64,000 nucleotides of DNA from Paenibacillus sp. (GTDB lineage: Bacteria; Bacteroidota; Bacteroidia; Bacteroidales; Muribaculaceae), in assembly GCA_023663345.1 (NCBI GenBank), contig JAMPHR010000001.1:614786-678785 (forward strand), given 5' to 3'. Positions 10,520 through 27,633 of the stretch are shown piece after piece; position 1 is the stretch's first letter, and each line of letters starts with the position of its first letter. The notes under the pieces are model-generated. The model worked only from the letters and a program-made list of their open reading frames with translations, did no database searches and was not told the origin of the DNA. The position numbers and the translations under genes are program-made.

Positions 10520-11545
10520 ATGGACCAGAACAATCTCATAGTATATCTCGAAATCGAGGATGGCCGTGTGGCCGATGTGAGCCTCGAACTTCTGACCAAA
10601 GGGCGTGTGCTTGCCGAGAAATTAGGTGTGAAACTCGAAGCAGTGGCCGTGGGCGACAACCTCGACACCGTGGCCGAGCAGGTGTTCCCTTACGGAGTTG
10701 ACCGCCTGTACCGTGTAGCTGACAAGCGTCTCTCCCCCTACACCTCCAATCCCCACTCGGCAGTGCTGATCAATCTCTTCAAGGAGATCAAGCCCCAGAT
10801 CTGCCTCATGGGCGCGACCTGTATCGGCCGTGACCTGGGTCCCCGCGTGAGCTCGTGCCTGCACAGCGGTCTTACCGCCGACTGTACAGCCCTCGAGATC
10901 GGCGACCACACCGATGCCCGCACCAAGCAGGAATACAAGGACCTGTTGCTCCAGATCCGACCCGCTTTCGGTGGCAACATCGTGGCTACTATCGTCAACC
11001 CCGAGTGCCGTCCGCAGATGGCTACAGTGCGCGAGGGCGTGATGAAGAAAGAGGTGTATGATCCCGCCCACAAGGGTGAGGTGATCGACCTCGATGCCAA
11101 GAAATATGTGAGCGACGAGGACTTCGTGGTAGAGATCCTCGACCGTCATATCGAGAAATCCAAAATCAACATCAAGAACTCGCCCATCATCGTGGCCGGC
11201 GGTTACGGCGTAGGCTCGAAGGAGAACTTCAAGCTGCTCCACGACCTGGCCGAGACCCTCGGAGCCGAGGTAGGCGCTTCGCGTGCCGCCGTCGATGCTG
11301 GATTCACCGAACATGCCCGCCAGATAGGCCAGACCGGCGTGACCGTGCGTCCCAAACTGTACATTGCCTGCGGTATCTCAGGTCAGATCCAGCACATCGC
11401 CGGTATGCAGGAGAGCTCGATCATCATCTCGATCAACAACGATCCCAACGCTCCCATCAACACCATCGCCGACTATGTGATCACCGGCAATCTTGAGGAA
11501 GTGGTGCCCAAACTGATCAAATACTACAAGAAGAACTCAAAATAA
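10520..11545 (+). CDS. etfA: Electron transfer flavoprotein alpha subunit
   Basis: EtfA/FixB-type subunit of 341 residues and partner of EtfB. The start MDQNNLIVYLE at 10520 fits the family N-terminus and lies just after the etfB stop. A longer in-frame start inside etfB would add 28 unrelated residues. The C-terminal FAD-binding domain is clear: VAGGYGVGSKENF, GASRAAVDAGF, QIGQTGVTVRPKLYIACGISG, and the final SIIISINNDPNAPIN segment. The context with an acyl-CoA dehydrogenase points to fatty acyl or short-chain acyl-CoA metabolism. Whether it bifurcates electrons cannot be decided from the sequence alone. Confidence 0.95.
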   Translation: MDQNNLIVYLEIEDGRVADVSLELLTKGRVLAEKLGVKLEAVAVGDNLDTVAEQVFPYGVDRLYRVADKRLSPYTSNPHSAVLINLFKEIKPQICLMGATCIGRDLGPRVSSCLHSGLTADCTALEIGDHTDARTKQEYKDLLLQIRPAFGGNIVATIVNPECRPQMATVREGVMKKEVYDPAHKGEVIDLDAKKYVSDEDFVVEILDRHIEKSKINIKNSPIIVAGGYGVGSKENFKLLHDLAETLGAEVGASRAAVDAGFTEHARQIGQTGVTVRPKLYIACGISGQIQHIAGMQESSIIISINNDPNAPINTIADYVITGNLEEVVPKLIKYYKKNSK

Positions 11546-13726: not shown

Positions 13727-14899
13727 CTATAATGCCTTAGAGAGGATGTCGGATACTTTTACGGGATCGTGGCCGGCGAAGACGATCTTGCCATCGCCGT
13801 CGATAAGAACCATGAAGGGGATACCGCTGAAATGATAGGCGGTGGTCACATCCCTGAAGCTGTCCTTGGGCACGCGAAGCTGAGTCCATGCCATCTTCTC
13901 CTGATCCATGGCCTTGCGCCAGGCGGCATCGTCCTCATCAACGCTTGCTGCGATGATATTGAGCTTATCGCCATACTTCTCGTGAAGCTCGCGCACATGA
14001 GGAATAGCTGCACGGCAGGGACCACACCATGAGGCCCAGAAGTCGACCATAGTATATTTGCCCTTTCCAGCCTGCTCGGCGAAATTGTGGGAAGTTCCCT
14101 CGGGATCCACTGCTACGAAATCGGCAAACTGCTGTCCTCGCATAAATTTGCGTGCATTCTCCACGGCTTTGAGGAGCGATGCACGGCGCACGGGCGAGTT
14201 GTTGGCGCTCACCTTGGCCTGTATATCATCGAGCTCGGCGCTGTCATAGATAAACGGATTGCCGAGAGCCTGCTCCCACAACATTCCGCTGATATGATAG
14301 GCTGGATGCTCGTTCATGAACGCATCGTTGGCATTATCAAGAGCCTTTTCAGCATCGCTGTATGCGGCCTTAAGCTTTGCCTGATTTTCGGGCGACTTAT
14401 CACTGCTCTTATCCCAATACAGGTTGTAATGGGCTGTGCGGGCAGCCACATTGTAAGGGAACATGGCGTTATTGTACTCGTCATACTCGCGCTGAGCCTC
14501 TCCACCCTTTACCGTCACATTTTTCTTCTGATACAAGCCTGACGGACCCACAAAGAATGACAACGGGATACTGTCGAGATGAGCCACGGATACCTCAATC
14601 GGCAGATTCTCTACCATCAGATCGAAGGCTCGGCCATTGGCTCCATCATCGGCAGGGTCATCGAGCCGGATCTCACACATCGTAGGTTTGGCTACGGAGC
14701 CTGTAATGGTAAACTGTCCGTCGGTCACTGTACCCGAGACAGCCTTCCAGTCATTTCCGGCCTTGGTGTCACGGTTTACGAGTTCAACACGGTGGCCGGC
14801 TTTGAGGCCTGGCACTTTACCGGTGATTGTAAAAGTATCCTGAGCCATGAGCGAACCCATGGCCAGGAGGGATACAATTGATAGGGATATTCTTTTCAT
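13727..14899 (-). CDS. TlpA-like thioredoxin with N-terminal DUF4369 domain
   Basis: Exported thiol-disulfide protein of 390 residues. The signal peptide (MKRISLSIVSLLAMGSLMAQ) is followed by a beta-rich DUF4369-like N-terminal domain (FTITGKVPGLKAGHRVELVN), a helical middle of about 130 residues and a C-terminal thioredoxin-fold domain. The active site WCGPC lies in the context VDFWASWCGPCRAAIPHV, and a cis-Pro region reads FSGIPFMVLID. Such proteins are common in Bacteroidetes and act as periplasmic reductases, though partners are unknown. A paralogue of the same design is immediately upstream on the same strand. The two are separated by 219 bases, so co-transcription is possible but not certain. 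Confidence 0.9.
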   Translation of the reverse strand: MKRISLSIVSLLAMGSLMAQDTFTITGKVPGLKAGHRVELVNRDTKAGNDWKAVSGTVTDGQFTITGSVAKPTMCEIRLDDPADDGANGRAFDLMVENLPIEVSVAHLDSIPLSFFVGPSGLYQKKNVTVKGGEAQREYDEYNNAMFPYNVAARTAHYNLYWDKSSDKSPENQAKLKAAYSDAEKALDNANDAFMNEHPAYHISGMLWEQALGNPFIYDSAELDDIQAKVSANNSPVRRASLLKAVENARKFMRGQQFADFVAVDPEGTSHNFAEQAGKGKYTMVDFWASWCGPCRAAIPHVRELHEKYGDKLNIIAASVDEDDAAWRKAMDQEKMAWTQLRVPKDSFRDVTTAYHFSGIPFMVLIDGDGKIVFAGHDPVKVSDILSKAL

Positions 14900-15118: not shown

Positions 15119-16276
15119 TTATTTTACGTTGGATTCGAGGTAGGCGTCGATCTCCTTGGGGAGATTGGTGGAGCACACGATCCGGCCCTCGGGATCGATC
15201 AGTATGAGGCGGGGGATGGCCGAGATGGCATATAGTTTGCCGGCCTCGGCGAACTGCCCGGGATTGAGGTGGAGCTGAGTCCACTCCATATGCTCCTTAT
15301 CCATAGCCTTTTTCCATGCCTCGGCACTCTCGTCACATGAGATGCTGAACACTTTCATCTTGCCGGCATACTGATTGTGGAGCTTGCGCACATGGGGGAT
15401 GGCTACACGACAAGGGCCACACCATGAGGCCCAAAAGTCGATGAACGTGTATTGGCCGGGCTCCATATAGCTCGAAAACTGCTTGGCATCGCCATTGGTA
15501 TCATCCACATGGAAATCGGAATACTTGCGCACCAAGGCATATTTCTTACTCCAGTCGAGGGCGCGTTTATTCAGACTGACACGGGCGGTATCGGGACACA
15601 CTTTCACTTTCTCGGCCATTGCTGTCAGCTCGTCCTCGGAATGTACAAATATATTCTGAAGTTCCTTAAACGTCATTGCCGATGATATATGATAAGTGGG
15701 ATGCGCTGCTATGAATTTCTGCTTTATTGCATAAAGTTCGGCCGCCGCCTTCTCCTTCAGTGCATCATATATTGCCATGGTGTCGGGGTTATCATTGCTC
15801 CAGAAATATTTTTCGGCGCTAAGGTAGCTTGCGCGTTTGGCCTTGTCCTCGGCTGCGGAGCATGAGGCGAGATACTCGGCAAACTGACGGTTGGCCTCGC
15901 TTCCGGTGACAGTCAGCAGTGTGTCGGGTACATACGATTCGCTCATCTCTCCGATGGGAGCTCGGAACGACACATTGATATCGGTGTTTTCTACCATCAT
16001 GCGCGGGGAGGTGGCTGTGCGGAATCCACCGCGCTTGCTACGAGGCTGGATGGAAATGGTGCATAACGATGGCATTTTCACCGAGCCGGTGAGGGTAAAT
16101 GAGCCATCAGTCGTGAATACCTCGGTAATCTTCTCAGGCTCCTCCCACTCGATGTTGGAGAGTACTATGCGGGTGCTGTCGGTCACGCCTGGAATGGTGC
16201 CTGTGATGGTGAAATGATCGGCCGCAAGTGCAGGCATGGCAAACGCCATGGCAAGGATCGTTGCAATAGTTTTCAT
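15119..16276 (-). CDS. TlpA-like thioredoxin with N-terminal DUF4369 domain, paralogue
   Basis: Exported protein of 385 residues with the same architecture as its downstream neighbour. It has a signal peptide (MKTIATILAMAFAMPALAA), a DUF4369-like domain (FTITGTIPGVTDSTRIVLSN), a helical linker and a thioredoxin domain with the active site in FIDFWASWCGPCRVAIPHV and ISAIPRLILID near the cis-Pro. The two proteins share the overall plan but are clearly diverged in the middle, so the duplication is old. A terminator separates this gene from the SusCD operon upstream, so it is probably transcribed separately. No consensus promoter was recognised in the 54 bases between the terminator and the start. 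Confidence 0.9.
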   Translation of the reverse strand: MKTIATILAMAFAMPALAADHFTITGTIPGVTDSTRIVLSNIEWEEPEKITEVFTTDGSFTLTGSVKMPSLCTISIQPRSKRGGFRTATSPRMMVENTDINVSFRAPIGEMSESYVPDTLLTVTGSEANRQFAEYLASCSAAEDKAKRASYLSAEKYFWSNDNPDTMAIYDALKEKAAAELYAIKQKFIAAHPTYHISSAMTFKELQNIFVHSEDELTAMAEKVKVCPDTARVSLNKRALDWSKKYALVRKYSDFHVDDTNGDAKQFSSYMEPGQYTFIDFWASWCGPCRVAIPHVRKLHNQYAGKMKVFSISCDESAEAWKKAMDKEHMEWTQLHLNPGQFAEAGKLYAISAIPRLILIDPEGRIVCSTNLPKEIDAYLESNVK

Positions 16277-16377: not shown

Positions 16378-17112
16378 TCAGTTGGTAGCATTACGGCACC
16401 AGCGGACTGACATGAGGTTATCGGTGTGCGAGCATTGACGCTCAACACCCTCTACGCCGGCTACAAGCTTACGGAAATATGCCATCGGTACCTCTCCGTA
16501 AGAATTATCGGGAGTAGAAGTCCAGAAATAGCCATACTCGGTGACAGTGTTAAGGTTCATAGCCATCCAGCCATAGGTTTTGACACGGACAGTACCACCA
16601 CCTAACTTCAGGCCCATGCCCACACCCGACTCGGAGGTTGCCATAAGTCGCGAGGCCACGCCATTGGCACCACGCCAGCCTTTATTGTCGGCATCGGTCA
16701 TGCCGAGGGCACGCTCGAGAGCTTTCCAATCCTCATCGGTGGGAAGTCTCCATCCCTCAGGGGCGGAAGCTACGGCCTCGTTATAGCACATCAGATTGCC
16801 ATACACCGGCATATAACCATTGTCTATATAATCAAACTCATCCTCATATTCCGATCCATATTTGATCTCAACATAAGAATAGTAAAAATTATTATAGAAT
16901 GTGTAGTCGTAAATAGGGGTACCATTCTTGGCATTGGAAGTAGTCCATTCCAGATCTCCTATGCGAATCCACTCATAGACATTTCCTTCATCATCGGTCA
17001 CAGTGCCTGATGCCGTAGGAGATGTTACCACAGTGATATCATCGTCATCGTTGCATGATGATAACACAACAGGAACCACCATCGCAAGGAATAAATATAT
17101 TAACTTTTTCAT
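16378..17112 (-). CDS. FISUMP-domain surface lipoprotein
   Basis: Lipoprotein of 244 residues with a signal peptide and lipobox ending at Cys19 (VVLSSC), followed by an acidic NDDDD stretch of the kind used for surface export of Bacteroidetes lipoproteins. The rest matches the Fibrobacter succinogenes major paralogous domain. It shows VTDDEGNVYEWIRIGDLEWT, NLMCYNEAVASAPEGWRLPT with DEDWKALERALG, and the end YFWTSTP ... SVRWCRN. This C-type-lectin-like fold is common in surface proteins but its ligand is not known. As last gene of a SusC-SusD operon, it could be a surface glycan- or protein-binding component. This is inferred from position only. Confidence 0.85.
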   Translation of the reverse strand: MKKLIYLFLAMVVPVVLSSCNDDDDITVVTSPTASGTVTDDEGNVYEWIRIGDLEWTTSNAKNGTPIYDYTFYNNFYYSYVEIKYGSEYEDEFDYIDNGYMPVYGNLMCYNEAVASAPEGWRLPTDEDWKALERALGMTDADNKGWRGANGVASRLMATSESGVGMGLKLGGGTVRVKTYGWMAMNLNTVTEYGYFWTSTPDNSYGEVPMAYFRKLVAGVEGVERQCSHTDNLMSVRWCRNATN

Positions 17113-17123
17113 TATAAACTTTA

Positions 17124-18029
17124 TTAGAATTTATATCCGAGTGACAGAATAGCATTCTTGATGATATTGTATTTTGTGACAATCATGGGATAGTCACCGA
17201 ACTCAGCCATGAAATCGGCTTCGTCCCTATCCATCACTGCATCATAGAAGTCATCAAAGTCATTGTATGCATATGGCAGATAGTCATTTTGCGGACCACG
17301 CCTACTCTGTATATATGAGAGATAGCCCATCTCATATACCGGCGTAATATCAGAACGATCCCAGTCTTCATAATAATCCGTGAGATATTCACCGGCATAT
17401 TCATAGGACAGATCCATGAATTCTTCAGCCTCATCGCTATAAGAATTGAACTTTGCACTTACAAGTTCTTTAAGAGCAGTCCTGGCGTAAACAGCCACAT
17501 CGTCATCGGACGTATTCAACATATCACCCATGGCAACCGCGAGACTGCGCCAACACGAGGTAGTAGATGCTTCCTCATAACCATAATATCCTGAAACCTG
17601 AAGATTATCCACAAGCAACACCGAATAAGGCAACAGTGAACTGCCCTTCACGTGAGGATATATATATTCCAAGAAAAGATTGGTAGCGGTCTCTTTGGCA
17701 TTATCATCCGTAATATACTCAAAGATAGGGGGATTGCCACCACTTGAGGTAAGGTTGAATGTGAAATCGATGTACTCATCCTTATACACATCATTGCCAT
17801 AGGCATCCTTACCGATCACTGTGTGGCTTAGGAGATCGTTAAACATCAGGTATGTACCGGTCTCCTTAAAGAAATTGCGACGCAATTCAGCCTCAAGCCC
17901 GGTTGCATCATCGGGCACTGCAAACAAATTGACATTATCAGACGGCTCAAGAATCTCCTCGTCATCAGAACAAGAGGTGGCAAACACCCCGGAAAGGAGC
18001 ATGAAACCATATATGATATATTTATTCAT
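17124..18029 (-). CDS. Lipoprotein of a SusCD operon, function unknown
   Basis: Lipoprotein of 301 residues with signal peptide MNKYIIYGFMLLSGVFATSC and an acidic SDDEE stretch after the lipid-bearing Cys. The start at 18029 gives a normal signal peptide; an ATG at 18050 would add seven residues and begin eight bases after the SusD stop. The segment ELRRNFFKETGTYLMFNDLL recalls the opening of lipoproteins described as substrate import-associated metallohydrolases encoded next to SusC/SusD. No HExxH zinc motif is present anywhere, so no catalytic role can be assigned. It may be a non-catalytic relative or a binding protein. It is the third gene of the SusC-SusD operon. Confidence 0.75.
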   Translation of the reverse strand: MNKYIIYGFMLLSGVFATSCSDDEEILEPSDNVNLFAVPDDATGLEAELRRNFFKETGTYLMFNDLLSHTVIGKDAYGNDVYKDEYIDFTFNLTSSGGNPPIFEYITDDNAKETATNLFLEYIYPHVKGSSLLPYSVLLVDNLQVSGYYGYEEASTTSCWRSLAVAMGDMLNTSDDDVAVYARTALKELVSAKFNSYSDEAEEFMDLSYEYAGEYLTDYYEDWDRSDITPVYEMGYLSYIQSRRGPQNDYLPYAYNDFDDFYDAVMDRDEADFMAEFGDYPMIVTKYNIIKNAILSLGYKF

Positions 18030-18057
18030 ATTTCTACGATTATTAACCATTTAACAA

Positions 18058-19635
18058 TTATTTGCTTGCCGAAACCCTGTTAGCCACACGGGCCGGACGG
18101 GGATTATTACCTATCGAGGGCTGGAATTCACGTATCTCACGAGGTATAGGCAGAGTATAGGCCTGATCATATTCCTCAAGCCGATAGGTGTCGGTGTAAT
18201 CCACCACTTCTTCCCAATCAACTTCATGATAGTAATGATAGCTATGGTCAATTACTTTTGACCATGGATATTTCTGACATACCGTGTAACGGCGTAAATC
18301 AAACCAGCGGTGTCCCTCGAGAAGGAACTCGCGTGCACGCTCCTCTCGTATAAAATCGATAAGAGCATTGCCTGACATATTGACATCGGGTACAGAATTC
18401 ATGCGATAACGCAGAAATGTCTTGAGCAGTTCGCAAGCCTGGGCATCCTGTCCTTTATAAGCCAAGGCCTCGGCCTTATTCAGATATGCCTCGGGAGTGC
18501 GTAACAGGCAGTAGCTCGATACGTCGGTCATACCTCCCCATTTAGAACGTTGCTGGTTATACTTCAGGAATACATCAGGATAATATCCATCCTCGGTAGA
18601 ACCGATATACAGGGTAGAGCGTAGGTCGTTCCTGTCAAAAAGGTCCAACATATAATCGGAAACCTTGAAAGCAGAAGGATAATCGCCATAGCGGTCATCA
18701 GCAAAATTAGCGGCAATCAGATAATGACCCATTGTAAAGATAGTCTCGGGTGAACCAAGATATACCGAATTGGCCCCGGCTGAGACTGTGTGAAGATCAA
18801 GCAACCGGCTATTGGATGCGAGCACCTTGTCGGCATAAGCCACAGCGTTATCCCAATCCTGCATATAGAGATATACACGGCTCAACATCAAGTTTGCGGC
18901 CGCCTCATCACCATGATACTTTGATTTCACGGTCTTTCCGGCAAGGAATGTAGAAGCATTGTGAAAATCCGACAGAATCTGGGCATAGGTTTCTTCGAGA
19001 GTCGAACGCCCAAACTCGGTATCCTCAATGTACTCGGTAGTCTTGATGGGTACACCGAGAGCAGTGGCCGCATTGTCGGCAGTGTAAGGCTGAGCATATA
19101 GATTGGCAAGGAAGAAGTAGCACATACCTCTCAAGAAATGAGCCTCACCCTTGACACGCTCTTTGGCTACAACATCTTCGACATCAGTCTCGGGCTGCTC
19201 ATCAATGAGAGCGATGACCATATTGCACACATTGATGCGGGCATATAAATCGTTCCAGTATGTGGCATCACCGCCGGTGTATCTGAGGTCTTTGTCGACA
19301 CCTGTATCCTGTTGCCATGTAAAGAAGGGGAACATCGATTCGAGATAGGCACCAAAATCATTTTTTTCACTGGTATTCAACTCTATCTCATCAGTCATGT
19401 AGTGGAGCACATCCAAGCCGTTACCACTCTCACTATAGAGACCGGAATTAGAAAAGTATAGACGGCCTGAATGCATGTATCCATCTCCGAGTAGCACTTC
19501 GTCGAGATCACGCCATGACTCAACCTTGGCCAAGTCCTGGGATTGCTCCGTGAGAAAGTCGGAGCAGGAGGTGAGCCCCACAGCCATTATAGCCGCAGAG
19601 GCAAGATATTTTATTGATTTCTTATAAGTTTTCAT
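18058..19635 (-). CDS. SusD/RagB family nutrient-binding outer-membrane lipoprotein
   Basis: Surface lipoprotein of 525 residues that would lid the SusC barrel and bind the imported ligand. The signal peptide ends at the lipobox LTSC (Cys24). The SusD-like N-terminal region includes WNDLYARINVCNMVIALID and RVKGEAHFLRGMCYFFLANLYAQPY. TPR-like helices follow, then the C-terminal RagB/SusD part LIDFIREERAREFLLEGHRWFDLRRY and IPREIREFQPSIGNNPRP. Length and motifs are typical. It lies 15 bases after the SusC gene and shares its transcript. The ligand is not evident. The neighbouring secreted beta-galactosidase suggests a galactose-containing glycan, although peptide ligands are also possible for this class. 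Confidence 0.95.
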   Translation of the reverse strand: MKTYKKSIKYLASAAIMAVGLTSCSDFLTEQSQDLAKVESWRDLDEVLLGDGYMHSGRLYFSNSGLYSESGNGLDVLHYMTDEIELNTSEKNDFGAYLESMFPFFTWQQDTGVDKDLRYTGGDATYWNDLYARINVCNMVIALIDEQPETDVEDVVAKERVKGEAHFLRGMCYFFLANLYAQPYTADNAATALGVPIKTTEYIEDTEFGRSTLEETYAQILSDFHNASTFLAGKTVKSKYHGDEAAANLMLSRVYLYMQDWDNAVAYADKVLASNSRLLDLHTVSAGANSVYLGSPETIFTMGHYLIAANFADDRYGDYPSAFKVSDYMLDLFDRNDLRSTLYIGSTEDGYYPDVFLKYNQQRSKWGGMTDVSSYCLLRTPEAYLNKAEALAYKGQDAQACELLKTFLRYRMNSVPDVNMSGNALIDFIREERAREFLLEGHRWFDLRRYTVCQKYPWSKVIDHSYHYYHEVDWEEVVDYTDTYRLEEYDQAYTLPIPREIREFQPSIGNNPRPARVANRVSASK

Positions 19636-19650
19636 TGCAATGGTCAGTGA

Positions 19651-22600
19651 TTAGAATGTAATGTTGAGACCAAATGAGTAGCTGGGACGATCGGAGAGCT
19701 GGATAGTCGTGAAGCCACCCTGGGTAGGAGTCTGGCCCTTGAGTTCCTTGCTACACCATGTGTGGAGATTGTTGCCGGATGCATGGAGCTCAAGACGGCT
19801 TAGGCCGAATCGTGAAATCCAATTATCGGGGAGCTCGTAGGAAAGGCTTATGGTCTGGAGTTTGAGATAATCGGCACTTACCACACGGTAGTCACTATAG
19901 TCGTACATATCCCAATAGCTTGTGGCAATGGTCTGTACGCCGAGGTCGCTCATACCTTCCGACCAATGGTTCTGATACTTGAAATAGCTATCGCTACCTT
20001 CTCCAATAATGGCAGGAATATTGGTGTGAAGCTCATCGCCAGGCTTCATCCAGCGGTCAAGATAGTCACGGCTGAGATTATTCTCGGGATGAATTTCAGC
20101 CGCGCCGAAAGTAGAATTCCCACCTAATCCGTAAGTCTTTGTACCATACATTCCGAACAGACGGGTCTTGGCTCCGAGGCTATAGGCAAACGAGGCATTG
20201 AAATAGAGACGCTTCCAGCGGAGACGGGTGCTGAAGCTACCTGACATATATGGTTCACGCGATCCGGAAGCTACAAGCACATTGGTATAAGTGTCATACT
20301 TGCTGAGACCAACAAGATCCTGATAGTGATCCAACCAATCGTCGAACATAGGACCTCCGTCGTAGGGGCTGAGGCCAAGGAAACGGTAGGAATAGAATGT
20401 TCCGATAGGCTGTCCCTTCACGATTGCGTTACCGTTAAGAAAGTCGTCGAGTTCATAGGACTCACCTGCTGGGAGTGATTCGATAGAGTTGATGGTGCGG
20501 GAGAACTGGCCAGAAATGCTCCACTGCCAGTCGCGGGTCTGGATAGGACGACCGGTCACCGAGATGCTCCAACCATCATTGGAGATATTACCACCGTTGA
20601 CCACATAAGTCTGATAACCGTTAACAGTAGATATGGTCTTTGACATGAATGCATCCTTGGTGCGCTTGAAGTAGAGGTCACCCTCAACTTCAAGACGATT
20701 GTTCAGGAATGCAAGGTCAAAACCAAGATTGACGCTGGTGGTCTTCTCCCACTTGAGATTGGGGTTGGGGTTGCGGCTAACCGATGAAGTGTACTCCCCG
20801 TAGTAGCTGTCCAGAGGATTCTTCTTAATAATCATAACCGGAGACTCCGAATCCAACATATTGCCCTGGAAACCATAGGATGCTTTCAAGATGAAACGGT
20901 CGAGCCATGTCTGTTGCTTGATGAACCCGAGCTGGGCAGGGTCAAATGAACCGGATACCGACCAGATAGGAAGGATCTTGTCGTTGGATGTATCACCGAA
21001 GTTATTGGATCCGTCGATACGGGCATTGGCATTGAGGAATATCATGCGTTTCCAGTTGTAGCTGACGGTAGCATAGGCCGAAATCACATTGGACTTGCTA
21101 TCGGTTATGGTAGGAACGTTGGAAGCCATCCAATCCTTGTACATAGGATAGTCATCGAGATTGATGCCTGAGACAAATGACATGCCACGGTCGGGGAAAT
21201 AGCCCCGATCGGTGCGGGCATATCCCTTATAAGTGGTAGAGGAAGCCTCGAAACCGAGACCGCCACTTATATTATGGATCTCATCCTCACCAAAGTATTT
21301 ATTGGCATCAAGCTGAACACGGGTTGTCCAACTACGGTTCTGGGTATGGTCCTGGGACAACTGTCCACCATAAGGCATAAGAGTCTGATCGGGATCAATT
21401 TCTCCACCGTACTCTCCCATGCGCAATTCGGCCGCATACCATGATCTCTCGCCCCAATAGCTCTTGATATCGGTATCACCTGTAGTGTAGGACAGGATAG
21501 CGTTGGCGCGCAACCAGTCGGTAAACTTGAATTTAAGATTGGCGTCAAATGTATAGGATGACTGATCCTGCTTGATGCCACTGTTCTCAAGTTCATTCAG
21601 TATATTGAAATTATGGGGATCGGTATTGTTGCGATCGGGCTTGGCATAATAATAGTAACGACCGTCACGGCCATAGGCGGGAATGGCACGGCTCGTGGAA
21701 TATGCATAATCGACAGGAGAGATCGATTCCTGATAGTACTCACGCTCGCTTACATTACCCTTGATGCCGAATGATGCCGACAGCCAATTGGAGAAATTGA
21801 CATCGAGGTTGACCACAGCACTGTAACGACGGTTCTTGGTACCTTTCACGACATCATCATTATCCATGAAACCGAGAGAAGCATAGTAGGTGCCACGCTC
21901 GCCACCACCGCTCACGCTTGCATTGTGTTGCTGCGAGAAGCTGTCGTGGGTGAGCAGATCGAACCAGTCGGTGTTTCCGGTCTCATACCAAGCAAGGTCC
22001 TCCTGAAACTGGGAATATGTGATTTTACCCTCATACAGTTGCTTCATCAGACCTTCATATCCCACCATCGCGGCATAAGGGCTGTACTCATAGTGGTCGG
22101 CAAACAGTTCACGAGAGAGCTGGATACGCTCCTTGGAGTTCATCACGTCCACGCTCTTGTCGGTATAGTGAGGACGCTGTTTCCATGTAAATGTGTTGTT
22201 GTAACGGATCTGGGGCTTGCCCTCGCGACCACGCTTGGTGGTAATCACAATAACACCGTTGGCTGCCTTGGTACCGTAGAGTGCGGTGGCCGAGGCATCC
22301 TTAAGAATGTCGAGACGCTCGATATCCTGGGGGTTGAGTCCGGCGATGGCGTTACCGATACGGTTGATATAGTCGGGGTCGTTGAGGTCCTCGGCCGAGA
22401 TGGGCACAGGATCGTTGACCACGATACCGTCGACTACCCAGAGGGGCTCGCGGTTACCGATGATCGAAGATGTACCGCGGATACGGATCTTGGGGGCAAC
22501 ACCGGCCTCGCCTGAGTTGGACATGAACATAAGGTCGGGCACCTGACCCTCGAGCATCTGGTCGATTGAGATAGCGTCGGGGCGGATGATGTCCTCGGCC

Positions 22601-23062
22601 TTGAGCGAAGTGATGGAGCTTGTGGAGGCGCGCTTGTCGATCACCTGATAGCCGGTAACGACCACATCCTCGAGCATATTCTCATCGTCCTCGAGATTTA
22701 CCACAAGCTGGCCACCTTTCCAAGTGACCTCCTTGCGCTTCATACCTATATAAGATACAACAAGGGTCACGCTTTTGCGACCCTTGGCCGGGAGAGAGAA
22801 TATACCGTCGATATTAGTTGCTGTAGCTGTCTTGGGAGACTTTTTCTCCCACACTGACGCTCCGGGGAGTGGCTCGCCTTCGGCATCAAACACTACGCCT
22901 CTGATAACTGTTGCAGATTGCTCATTCTCAACAGCTTGGGCATAGGGGGGGGTTGGAATTCCCCTCCTGCATACCGGATTCCTTGGCCGATGCACCGACT
23001 CCACACACAAGGGATAGTGTCACGGGAAGAAACCAGCGTTTACTTAATGCGAATGTTCTCAT
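19651..23062 (-). CDS. SusC/RagA TonB-dependent transporter, frame broken at a C8 tract
   Basis: The protein would be an outer-membrane TonB-dependent importer of about 1136 residues. From the ATG at 23062 a clear signal peptide is encoded (MRTFALSKRWFLPVTLSLV, then CGVGASA). That frame stops at a TGA after 44 codons. The main frame starts within the same stretch and carries a CarboxypepD_reg-like domain (VIRGVVFDAEGEPLPGASV), the SusC plug (VVVTGYQVIDKRASTSSI, GTSSIIGNREPLWVVDGIVV, KDASATALYGTKAANGVIVI) and a complete barrel ending in YSFGLNITF. The two frames meet at eight consecutive C on the coding strand (plus G 22945-22952). Removing one C joins them exactly, giving ...NSNPPYAQAVENEQ. 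No start codon in the main frame supplies another signal peptide. Slipped-strand phase variation, a real disabling mutation or a base-calling error are all possible. Confidence 0.88.
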
Positions 23063-23115
23063 GTAAAAGAGATTTCTGTGTTGTTTGGTTAAGATTGGTA
23101 AATTTTTTATGTTCG

Positions 23116-23123
23116 CAAATATA
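23116..23123 (-). promoter_or_regulatory. -7 box for the SusC-SusD operon
   Basis: On the minus strand TATATTTG matches TAnnTTTG. It lies 54 bases upstream of the ATG at 23062, which supports that ATG as the true start of the SusC gene. No clear -33 TTTG is present. Confidence 0.6.
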
Positions 23124-26492
<3,369 letters not shown>

Positions 26493-26650: not shown

Positions 26651-26842
26651 ATGATACCATGTATTTTTAATCTCGGCACAGGCGAGATAGTAATAATCCT
26701 TGTGGTGGTGCTCCTGCTGTTCGGAGCCAAGAAAATCCCCGAACTGGCACGCGGCCTTGGTCGCGGTGTCAACTCTTTCCGTCAGGGACTCAACGAAGTC
26801 TCGGATGAGCTTAATGCCAAAGAGAAGAAAGAGGAGAATTGA
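26651..26842 (+). CDS. tatA: Twin-arginine translocase subunit TatA
   Basis: Small membrane protein of 63 residues that forms the Tat pore for folded proteins. A single hydrophobic segment (EIVIILVVVLLLF) follows FNLGTGE and precedes the family signature GAKKIPELARGLGRGV. A charged amphipathic tail (KEKKEEN) ends the protein. The start gives the usual short periplasmic N-terminus, so ATG 26651 is well placed. The predicted -7 box leaves almost no leader. The stop overlaps the tatC start by four bases. No TatB is present, as is usual for a minimal TatA-TatC system. Confidence 0.92.
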   Translation: MIPCIFNLGTGEIVIILVVVLLLFGAKKIPELARGLGRGVNSFRQGLNEVSDELNAKEKKEEN

Positions 26843-27633
26843 ACGAAGCCGCAGGATTCTGGGACCATGCCGAGGCCCTGCGCAAAGTGCTGCTACGGGC
26901 CACCGGGGTTGTCGTGGGGTTGATGTGCATCTACTTCGCCGTGATGCCCGAACTCTTCGACCGGGTGATCCTTGCGCCTTGCCGGAGCGACTTTCCACTT
27001 TACAGTCTGCTCGACAGTGTAGGCGGGCATGACGGAGTGCCGGAGCGCGCTGACATCAGCCTCATCAATATCCAGCTCGCCTCGCAATTCTTCGTACACA
27101 TGACCTCATCGATGTGGCTCGCTGTGATCACAGCTTTCCCCATCGTCCTGTACATGCTATGGACCTTTGTGGCTCCGGGACTGTACGAACATGAGAAAAG
27201 AGGCGTGACCGGGGCTTTCATCGGCGGAAACGTGATGTTCTATCTCGGCGTGACCATCGGTTATTTCCTGGTGTTCCCACTCACTCTAAGGTTTCTTGCC
27301 GATTACCAGCTGAGCAGTCTTATCCCAAACCAGATATCTCTCGATTCATATATCGACACCTTCATGATGCTTGTGCTCACAATGGGTATAGTGTTTGAGT
27401 TGCCTGTCGTGGCATGGCTGTTGGGCAAGACCGGGATACTCAGCCGGGAATTCTTTACCACATTCCGCCGTCACGCCATAGTGGCATTGCTTGTGCTTGC
27501 CGCCGTGGTGACTCCGACCGGTGATCCGTTCACACTGATGGTAGTATTTCTGCCTATCTATATATTATGGGAAGCGTCGGCACTCACGGTGCCCTCGCGA
27601 TCAGTTTCAACTGTTAATATCGTCAAGACATGA
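26839..27633 (+). CDS. tatC: Sec-independent protein translocase TatC
   Basis: Polytopic membrane receptor of 264 residues that recognises twin-arginine signal peptides. The N-terminus FWDHAEALRKVLLRA is the conserved TatC opening. Later segments MLWTFVAPGLYEHEKRG and FELPVVAWLLGKTGILSREFF, as well as VLAAVVTPTGDPFT, match the family. Translation starts at TTG (26839) within the sequence TTGA shared with the tatA stop, which points to coupled translation. A weak start codon could set a TatA excess over TatC. The end overlaps mtnN by four bases (ATGA). Confidence 0.94.
   Translation: MNEAAGFWDHAEALRKVLLRATGVVVGLMCIYFAVMPELFDRVILAPCRSDFPLYSLLDSVGGHDGVPERADISLINIQLASQFFVHMTSSMWLAVITAFPIVLYMLWTFVAPGLYEHEKRGVTGAFIGGNVMFYLGVTIGYFLVFPLTLRFLADYQLSSLIPNQISLDSYIDTFMMLVLTMGIVFELPVVAWLLGKTGILSREFFTTFRRHAIVALLVLAAVVTPTGDPFTLMVVFLPIYILWEASALTVPSRSVSTVNIVKT

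Follow-up and report, generated by a model that had tools for sequence, protein, structure and literature searches.

In a SusC-type outer-membrane receptor gene, a run of eight C bases separates the part encoding the export leader from the receptor body. It very probably acts as a slipped-strand contingency locus and belongs to a set of such loci spread over the genome. The first-pass annotation had proposed phase variation of this tract through slipped-strand mispairing, and this is supported as the best reading by the recurrence of such runs at other SusC genes, the breakage of reading frames at the runs, the intact frames of control genes, purifying selection on the receptor body, and relatives that carry the run in frame. 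Error or decay confined to a single gene explains the data poorly, given this recurrence, the controls, the selection, and the relatives' in-frame runs. The tract is conserved in two relatives, and run and N-terminal extension have been exchanged at least twice among the orthologues.

The C8 tract and its operon

In the window, i.e., the whole 64,000-nucleotide stretch of DNA that was analyzed, eight C occupy 22952–22945 of the minus strand. They span codons 37–40 of a leader frame, a 44-codon ORF on the minus strand (22928..23062) that extends from an ATG at 23062 to a stop codon ending at 22928. This ORF provides the start codon and a leader peptide, MRTFALSKRWFLPVTLSLVCGVGASAKESG, that is signal-peptide-like as judged by hydropathy only, and past the tract it is out of the SusC frame. 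The body frame lies one base apart; it opens 22 codons upstream of the tract, continues through a stop codon at 19651, and contains no ATG in those 22 codons. Tract length alone sets the frame, with both frames open up to the C8 and no stop in the 1091-residue body. Counted from ATG 23062 through the stop codon, the sequence is 3412 bases long (1 modulo 3), so one base fewer would give a protein of 1136 residues. The annotation's claims that the C8 parts the leader frame from a complete SusC frame, and that removal of one C fuses the two into a 1136-residue protein, are thus confirmed, the former by the 44-codon ORF, the one-base offset and the intact body, the latter by frame arithmetic. A tract of about eight or more within the 5' coding region or promoter is what characterizes a simple-sequence locus, and this gene has one. 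Counting against the switch reading, eight is at the low end of the length for rapid slippage, and a TTG at 23010 within the body frame could start an OFF-phase product, though one without an evident leader.

A promoter box had also been claimed for ATG 23062. We found TATATTTG on the minus strand at 23123–23116, 53 bases upstream of that ATG; it conforms to TAnnTTTG, which we take to be the Bacteroidetes -7 promoter box. No clear -33 box was seen upstream of ATG 23062. Inversion of promoter DNA, by which Bacteroidales usually switch genes, is an exceedingly improbable explanation. Invertase-driven phase variation of SusC/SusD pairs is known in B. fragilis (passages of PMC11868660), but here the break lies at the run rather than at the promoter, and the region 22600–23700 contains no inverted-repeat pair of 12 or more. 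For this absence of inverted repeats we rejected promoter inversion. A search of a viral contig set gave no matches to the locus.

The intact receptor body (19651..22944, minus strand) contains CarbopepD_reg_2, Plug, and barrel regions according to TIGR04056, TIGR04057, and Pfam profiles. Its TIGR04056 score of 662 bits (cut-off 368) and the adjoining SusD gene (PF07980) identify it as a SusC/RagA TonB-linked receptor. The remaining genes of the operon, also on the minus strand, encode the SusD-family lipoprotein partner (18058..19635; PF14322, PF07980), a probable lipoprotein recognized by eye and without a family match (17124..18050), and a Fib_succ_major (FISUMP) protein (16378..17112; PF09603). 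An ORF of similar length to that of the probable lipoprotein follows SusD in all seven orthologous operons. Profile matches identify two thioredoxin-like/DUF4369 proteins further downstream on the same strand (15119..16276 and 13727..14899); the first perhaps belongs to the same operon, and ORFs resembling it occur in the same order in L082, L083, L084, and L088. The receptor itself has no STN domain, its profile matches beginning at CarbopepD_reg_2. Its upstream neighbor is a divergent LacZ-type beta-galactosidase (profile match; 23424..26492, plus strand), so the gene falls outside the FecR/ECF sigma type. TatA- and TatC-like ORFs, recognized only by eye, adjoin the beta-galactosidase at 26651–27633 of the window, and the corresponding beta-galactosidase neighbor in relative G010, likewise identified by eye, seems to be split into two ORFs (L082:5886-8950).

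G/C runs at SusC genes across the host genome

The host genome (G000) is a 2.64 Mb draft assembly of 22 contigs that is 86.6% complete. It contains 25 G/C runs of at least eight bases and 14 of at least nine, compared to chance expectations per genome, extrapolated from the window's G/C runs of four and five, of approximately 5.7 and 0.8, respectively. Forty-one SusC genes score above the profile cut-off, and 15 of the 25 runs of at least eight, including 12 of the 14 of at least nine, lie near the start of a SusC body. Only 0.23 of the 25 would be expected there (binomial P 8e-25). The limits of this 5' zone, -420..+170 bases from the body start, were chosen after the runs had been seen; the excess far exceeds the freedom that such post hoc limits allow.

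In total, 14 of the 41 SusC genes carry a 5' run, one of them two. The run lies in coding sequence 3' of the start codon in ten of these genes and upstream in the other four. Coding runs follow the hydrophobic leader in six of ten cases and fall between the ATG and the hydrophobic segment in three; the remaining one (C11:697771) is inside the CarbopepD domain. In nine of the ten, the break in frame coincides exactly with the run, whereas the tenth, a G8 at C15:13972, is in frame. By comparison, none of 27 SusC genes free of a run of eight is broken at the 5' end (Fisher 8e-8), a lenient hydropathy score placing a hydrophobic leader in the body frame of each. These controls include one gene with a TAA within the body, one with a profile match only from position 143, and one with an in-frame G7. 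As for the runs upstream of SusC genes, that at C15:464258 is G12 in G000 and G9 in the 80% identical G010 relative, and this run has therefore been retained between species. Two adjoining SusC paralogues of 71% identity share a near-identical stretch around the leader and a G9 (L032:4995-5145 and 10750-10900), as if by gene conversion.

This pattern bears on whether the target is a recent pseudogene with a fixed frameshift, the run being merely the site of an indel. The gene is out of frame in this assembly, as such a history predicts, but the 1091-residue body and the SusD partner are intact, dN is well below dS, and the run is in frame in two relatives. Nine SusC genes are broken at runs compared to none of 27 others at the 5' end, with only one of the 27 having a stop elsewhere in the body. 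We therefore rejected a fixed pseudogene, very improbable in our judgment, on the grounds of purifying selection, nine parallel breaks at runs, and controls intact at the 5' end.

All nine broken SusC frames share the same +1 offset (two-way P 0.004), and none of the coding runs of nine at SusC genes of G000 is in frame. A base-calling or assembly error, by which the true length would be one less at the C8 and at the other eight broken runs, would produce such a shared offset, and the assembly is a draft that is only 86.6% complete. Such error is nevertheless quite unlikely. Within G000, runs of eight are in frame at the SusC gene C15:13972 and within an intact 615-codon ORF (C15:444879), a C10 at an acyltransferase gene is off by two rather than one, and runs of six to seven in the window sit inside open ORFs. 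Runs of eight to ten are also in frame in several relatives. Moreover, error gives no account of the clustering of long runs at SusC 5' ends, whichever length is right. Slippage itself would leave a population at nine at loci whose joining length is eight: in Campylobacter jejuni, insertions are favored in G8 and deletions from G11, with tracts mostly at G9 and G10 (passages of PMC8355987). The uniform offset fits this insertion bias, and systematic over-calling, retained as a rival reading, would equally give it.

The C8 may also be a leaky switch, in which a +1 ribosome slip at CCC-C, or a slip of RNA polymerase, would yield a little full-length receptor from the OFF form. The shift required to join the frames is +1 and falls within CCC CCC C, and CCC-C is a +1 frameshift-prone site. 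Most other coding SusC runs, however, are G runs without a CCC-C site, and the two relatives have retained an in-frame gene, not one with a fixed shift. Leakage of this kind is rather doubtful, and it would be compatible with a contingency locus. A point against the switch reading is that two of the nine OFF genes have an in-frame ATG, without a leader, 16 bases 5' of the run.

Orthologues and runs in relatives

We searched 61 genomes (own, genus, family, and order) and found orthologues of the target in seven other genomes, all of the same genus, with 68–84% identity over nearly the full length. Two of them carry the run at the same place, between the leader and the CarbopepD domain, in the other phase: the G009 orthologue (84%) has an in-frame C8 and the G010 orthologue (78%) an in-frame C9. 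The TAnnTTTG box and the start codon align among target, G009, and G010, whereas alignment is poor in the leader DNA that flanks the run. Target and G009 differ by a dN of 0.108 and a dS of 1.69 (Nei-Gojobori), with synonymous sites near saturation (dS 1.69 and 1.93 relative to G009 and G010, respectively). The SusC body is under purifying selection.

The other five orthologues (G014, G019, G005, G017, and G020) have no G/C run of at least six from -300 to +480 bases of the start codon, and all five have an N-terminal extension of approximately 60–100 residues. Matches of the extension to STN fall below the cut-off of 28.4 bits in G014 (26.4), G019 (23.5), and G005 (22.4); there is none in G017 and G020, whose proteins share 82% identity with the G005 protein along their full length. 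FecR and ECF sigma domains score above cut-off in neighboring genes in all five run-less relatives, and neither was seen at this locus in G000, G009, or G010, which carry the run. In an unrooted tree of the eight orthologous bodies alone, the target pairs with G009 and G010 with G014, and every fork is well supported; a version with two distant outgroups was poorly resolved. Given this topology, run and extension have swapped at least twice, and in the simplest histories the run was either gained twice or gained once with one return. Most simply, inducible control of the ECF sigma/FecR/STN type was exchanged for stochastic control, a direction that we infer. In G005 and G017, the adjacent divergent SusC operon has a G8 13 bases 5' of a TACATTTG box (L085:7788 and L086:6606); thus, a run in the position of a promoter-mode run adjoins the run-less orthologue in these genomes.

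Across 18 relatives of the same genus, SusC genes were found at nine of 79 runs of at least nine, one of the nine being a weak match, compared to 12 of 14 in G000 (Fisher 5e-8). The SusC bias is therefore peculiar to G000, which weighs against the switch reading, although the relatives' share still exceeds the 1% of sequence that such places occupy in G000. This survey left out G011, G013, G018, G023, G024, and G026 and some runs of G005, G006, and G007; several of these assemblies are fragmented, and the survey covers only the runs listed. G015 and G021 have no such runs. Of 19 scanned run-bearing proteins of relatives, 13 had a Pfam match and six had none. The matches comprise four to Acyl_transf_3 (one below cut-off), three to glycosyltransferase families 2 and 8, two to DUF3575, and one each to DUF6056, DUF4114, DUF5119, and DNA methylase. 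Acyltransferase and glycosyltransferase genes are usual targets of homopolymer switches. Sixteen coding runs of relatives, picked by eye with rows lacking a clear leader or body excluded, comprise eight in frame, five off by one, and three off by two.

Two side observations concern such targets. In G006, a DNA methylase gene (L159; PF01555) has an in-frame G9 close to its start (run at 2777) and may encode a phase-variable methyltransferase. A similar short leader, MNQ..T, precedes a C-run in unrelated genes (L044:4985-5020; L187 and L197 of G083), i.e., an acyltransferase gene in G000 and a glycosyltransferase 8 gene in G083, which belongs to another genus. Might leader and C-run together be a re-used start-plus-run module?

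The runs also share a sequence context. On the G strand, TA follows all 14 runs of at least nine in G000 and 18 of the 25 of at least eight; at the same loci it follows 6–7% of G4 and G5 and 10–12% of the few G6 and G7. The window's C8 is an exception and lacks the G-run-TA context, which counts against the switch reading here. In relatives, a T follows the G-run in 59 of 79 runs of at least nine. TA(A) occurs after coding and promoter runs alike and in both orientations relative to the gene. This context could reflect a recognized element, an effect of slippage, or shared origin. G9TAA is present in 114 of 148 genomes of the family. It outnumbers the reversed pattern by 27 to 7 in 12 genomes of the genus and by 8 to 0 in G000 alone; the reversed pattern is also common in other genera, the corresponding two counts being 22 and 9 in G083, which, like G072 (also of another genus), had been selected for its many G9TAA among the matches listed.

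Some runs are followed at a preferred distance by a promoter box. We counted boxes around 136 G-runs, taken from G000, from 18 further genomes of its genus, and from two genomes that represent two other genera. TAnnTTTG occurs within 45 bases 3' of the G-run in 38 of the 136, with 23 boxes at a spacing of 18–20 bases and seven at 13–15, compared to three of 136 on the C side and 1.9% at random places. This excess at set spacings makes it likely that runs also act in a second, promoter mode. Four SusC genes of G000 have their run upstream, and of these C21:26538 alone has TAnnTTTG in this range.

Proposed mechanism and comparison with known systems

We propose that slippage during replication gains or loses a C in the tract between the export leader and the SusC body of living cells. 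At the joining length, the receptor would be exported and could act together with SusD. With eight C, the leader frame runs into a stop after 44 codons; the body has neither an ATG nor a leader of its own and would not be exported, so the form in this assembly would be OFF. Since ten SusC genes have a run in their 5' coding sequence and four more have one upstream, a clone could express many combinations of receptors. At this operon, the switch would occupy the place of the ECF sigma/FecR/STN-type signaling chain of relatives. The benefit might be bet-hedging on diet, or escape from phage and immunity. In a broader reading, to which we give about an even chance, a lineage-wide contingency system of this Bacteroidales family would employ one element, a G-run of 8–12 followed by TA(A), in two modes: in the 5' coding region of genes for surface receptors or glycan modification, and 18–20 bases before TAnnTTTG boxes. 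In this species it would have spread to a third of the SusC genes, replace sigma/anti-sigma control, and make the import of food by each cell random.

Gut Bacteroidales are thought to pick nutrients by sensing and to vary their surfaces mainly through DNA inversion. If the proposed switch operates, clonal cells would differ randomly in what they import and in the phage or antibody targets that they display, and some annotated frameshifts in such genomes would be switches rather than junk. The joining lengths of the ten SusC genes can be predicted from their frames.

SusC regulation of the ECF sigma/FecR/STN type is signal-driven. All five run-less relatives have sigma and FecR genes of this kind next to the orthologous receptor gene; in this they differ from the target, since no such genes were seen there in G000, G009, or G010. 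The invertase system of B. fragilis resembles the target in acting on the same protein family and turning receptors on and off, but does so by site-specific DNA inversion rather than homopolymer slippage, and inversion is the sole mechanism of surface variation named in the passages of the review PMC11868660. Like G000, C. jejuni has many G-tracts per genome at its poly-G contingency loci; these affect flagellar, capsule, and restriction genes, whereas the long runs of G000 are mostly at SusC genes (passages of PMC8355987).

The closest analogue of the switch that we consider highly probable is provided by the haemoglobin receptor genes of Neisseria meningitidis, HmbR and HpuA, which contain poly-G tracts within the reading frame (passages of PMC3786947), and the SusC switch would be expected to work in the same manner. 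Both concern uptake at the outer membrane, have G-tracts of about the same length, and have a frame set by tract length; the hpuA tract, too, is followed by TAG (passages of PMC3786947). The Neisseria genes differ in phylum and receptor family and number one or two per genome, compared to 14 of 41 paralogues here. Among the papers listed in searches of one open-access library, none concerned homopolymer control of SusC, which is weak evidence of absence. Switches of this kind are known; their occurrence in this lineage and on this class of target appears new in the literature searched. As far as these searches show, the novelty relative to the known systems would be that homopolymer tracts control SusC genes across a whole genome and have been exchanged with the sigma/anti-sigma type of control.
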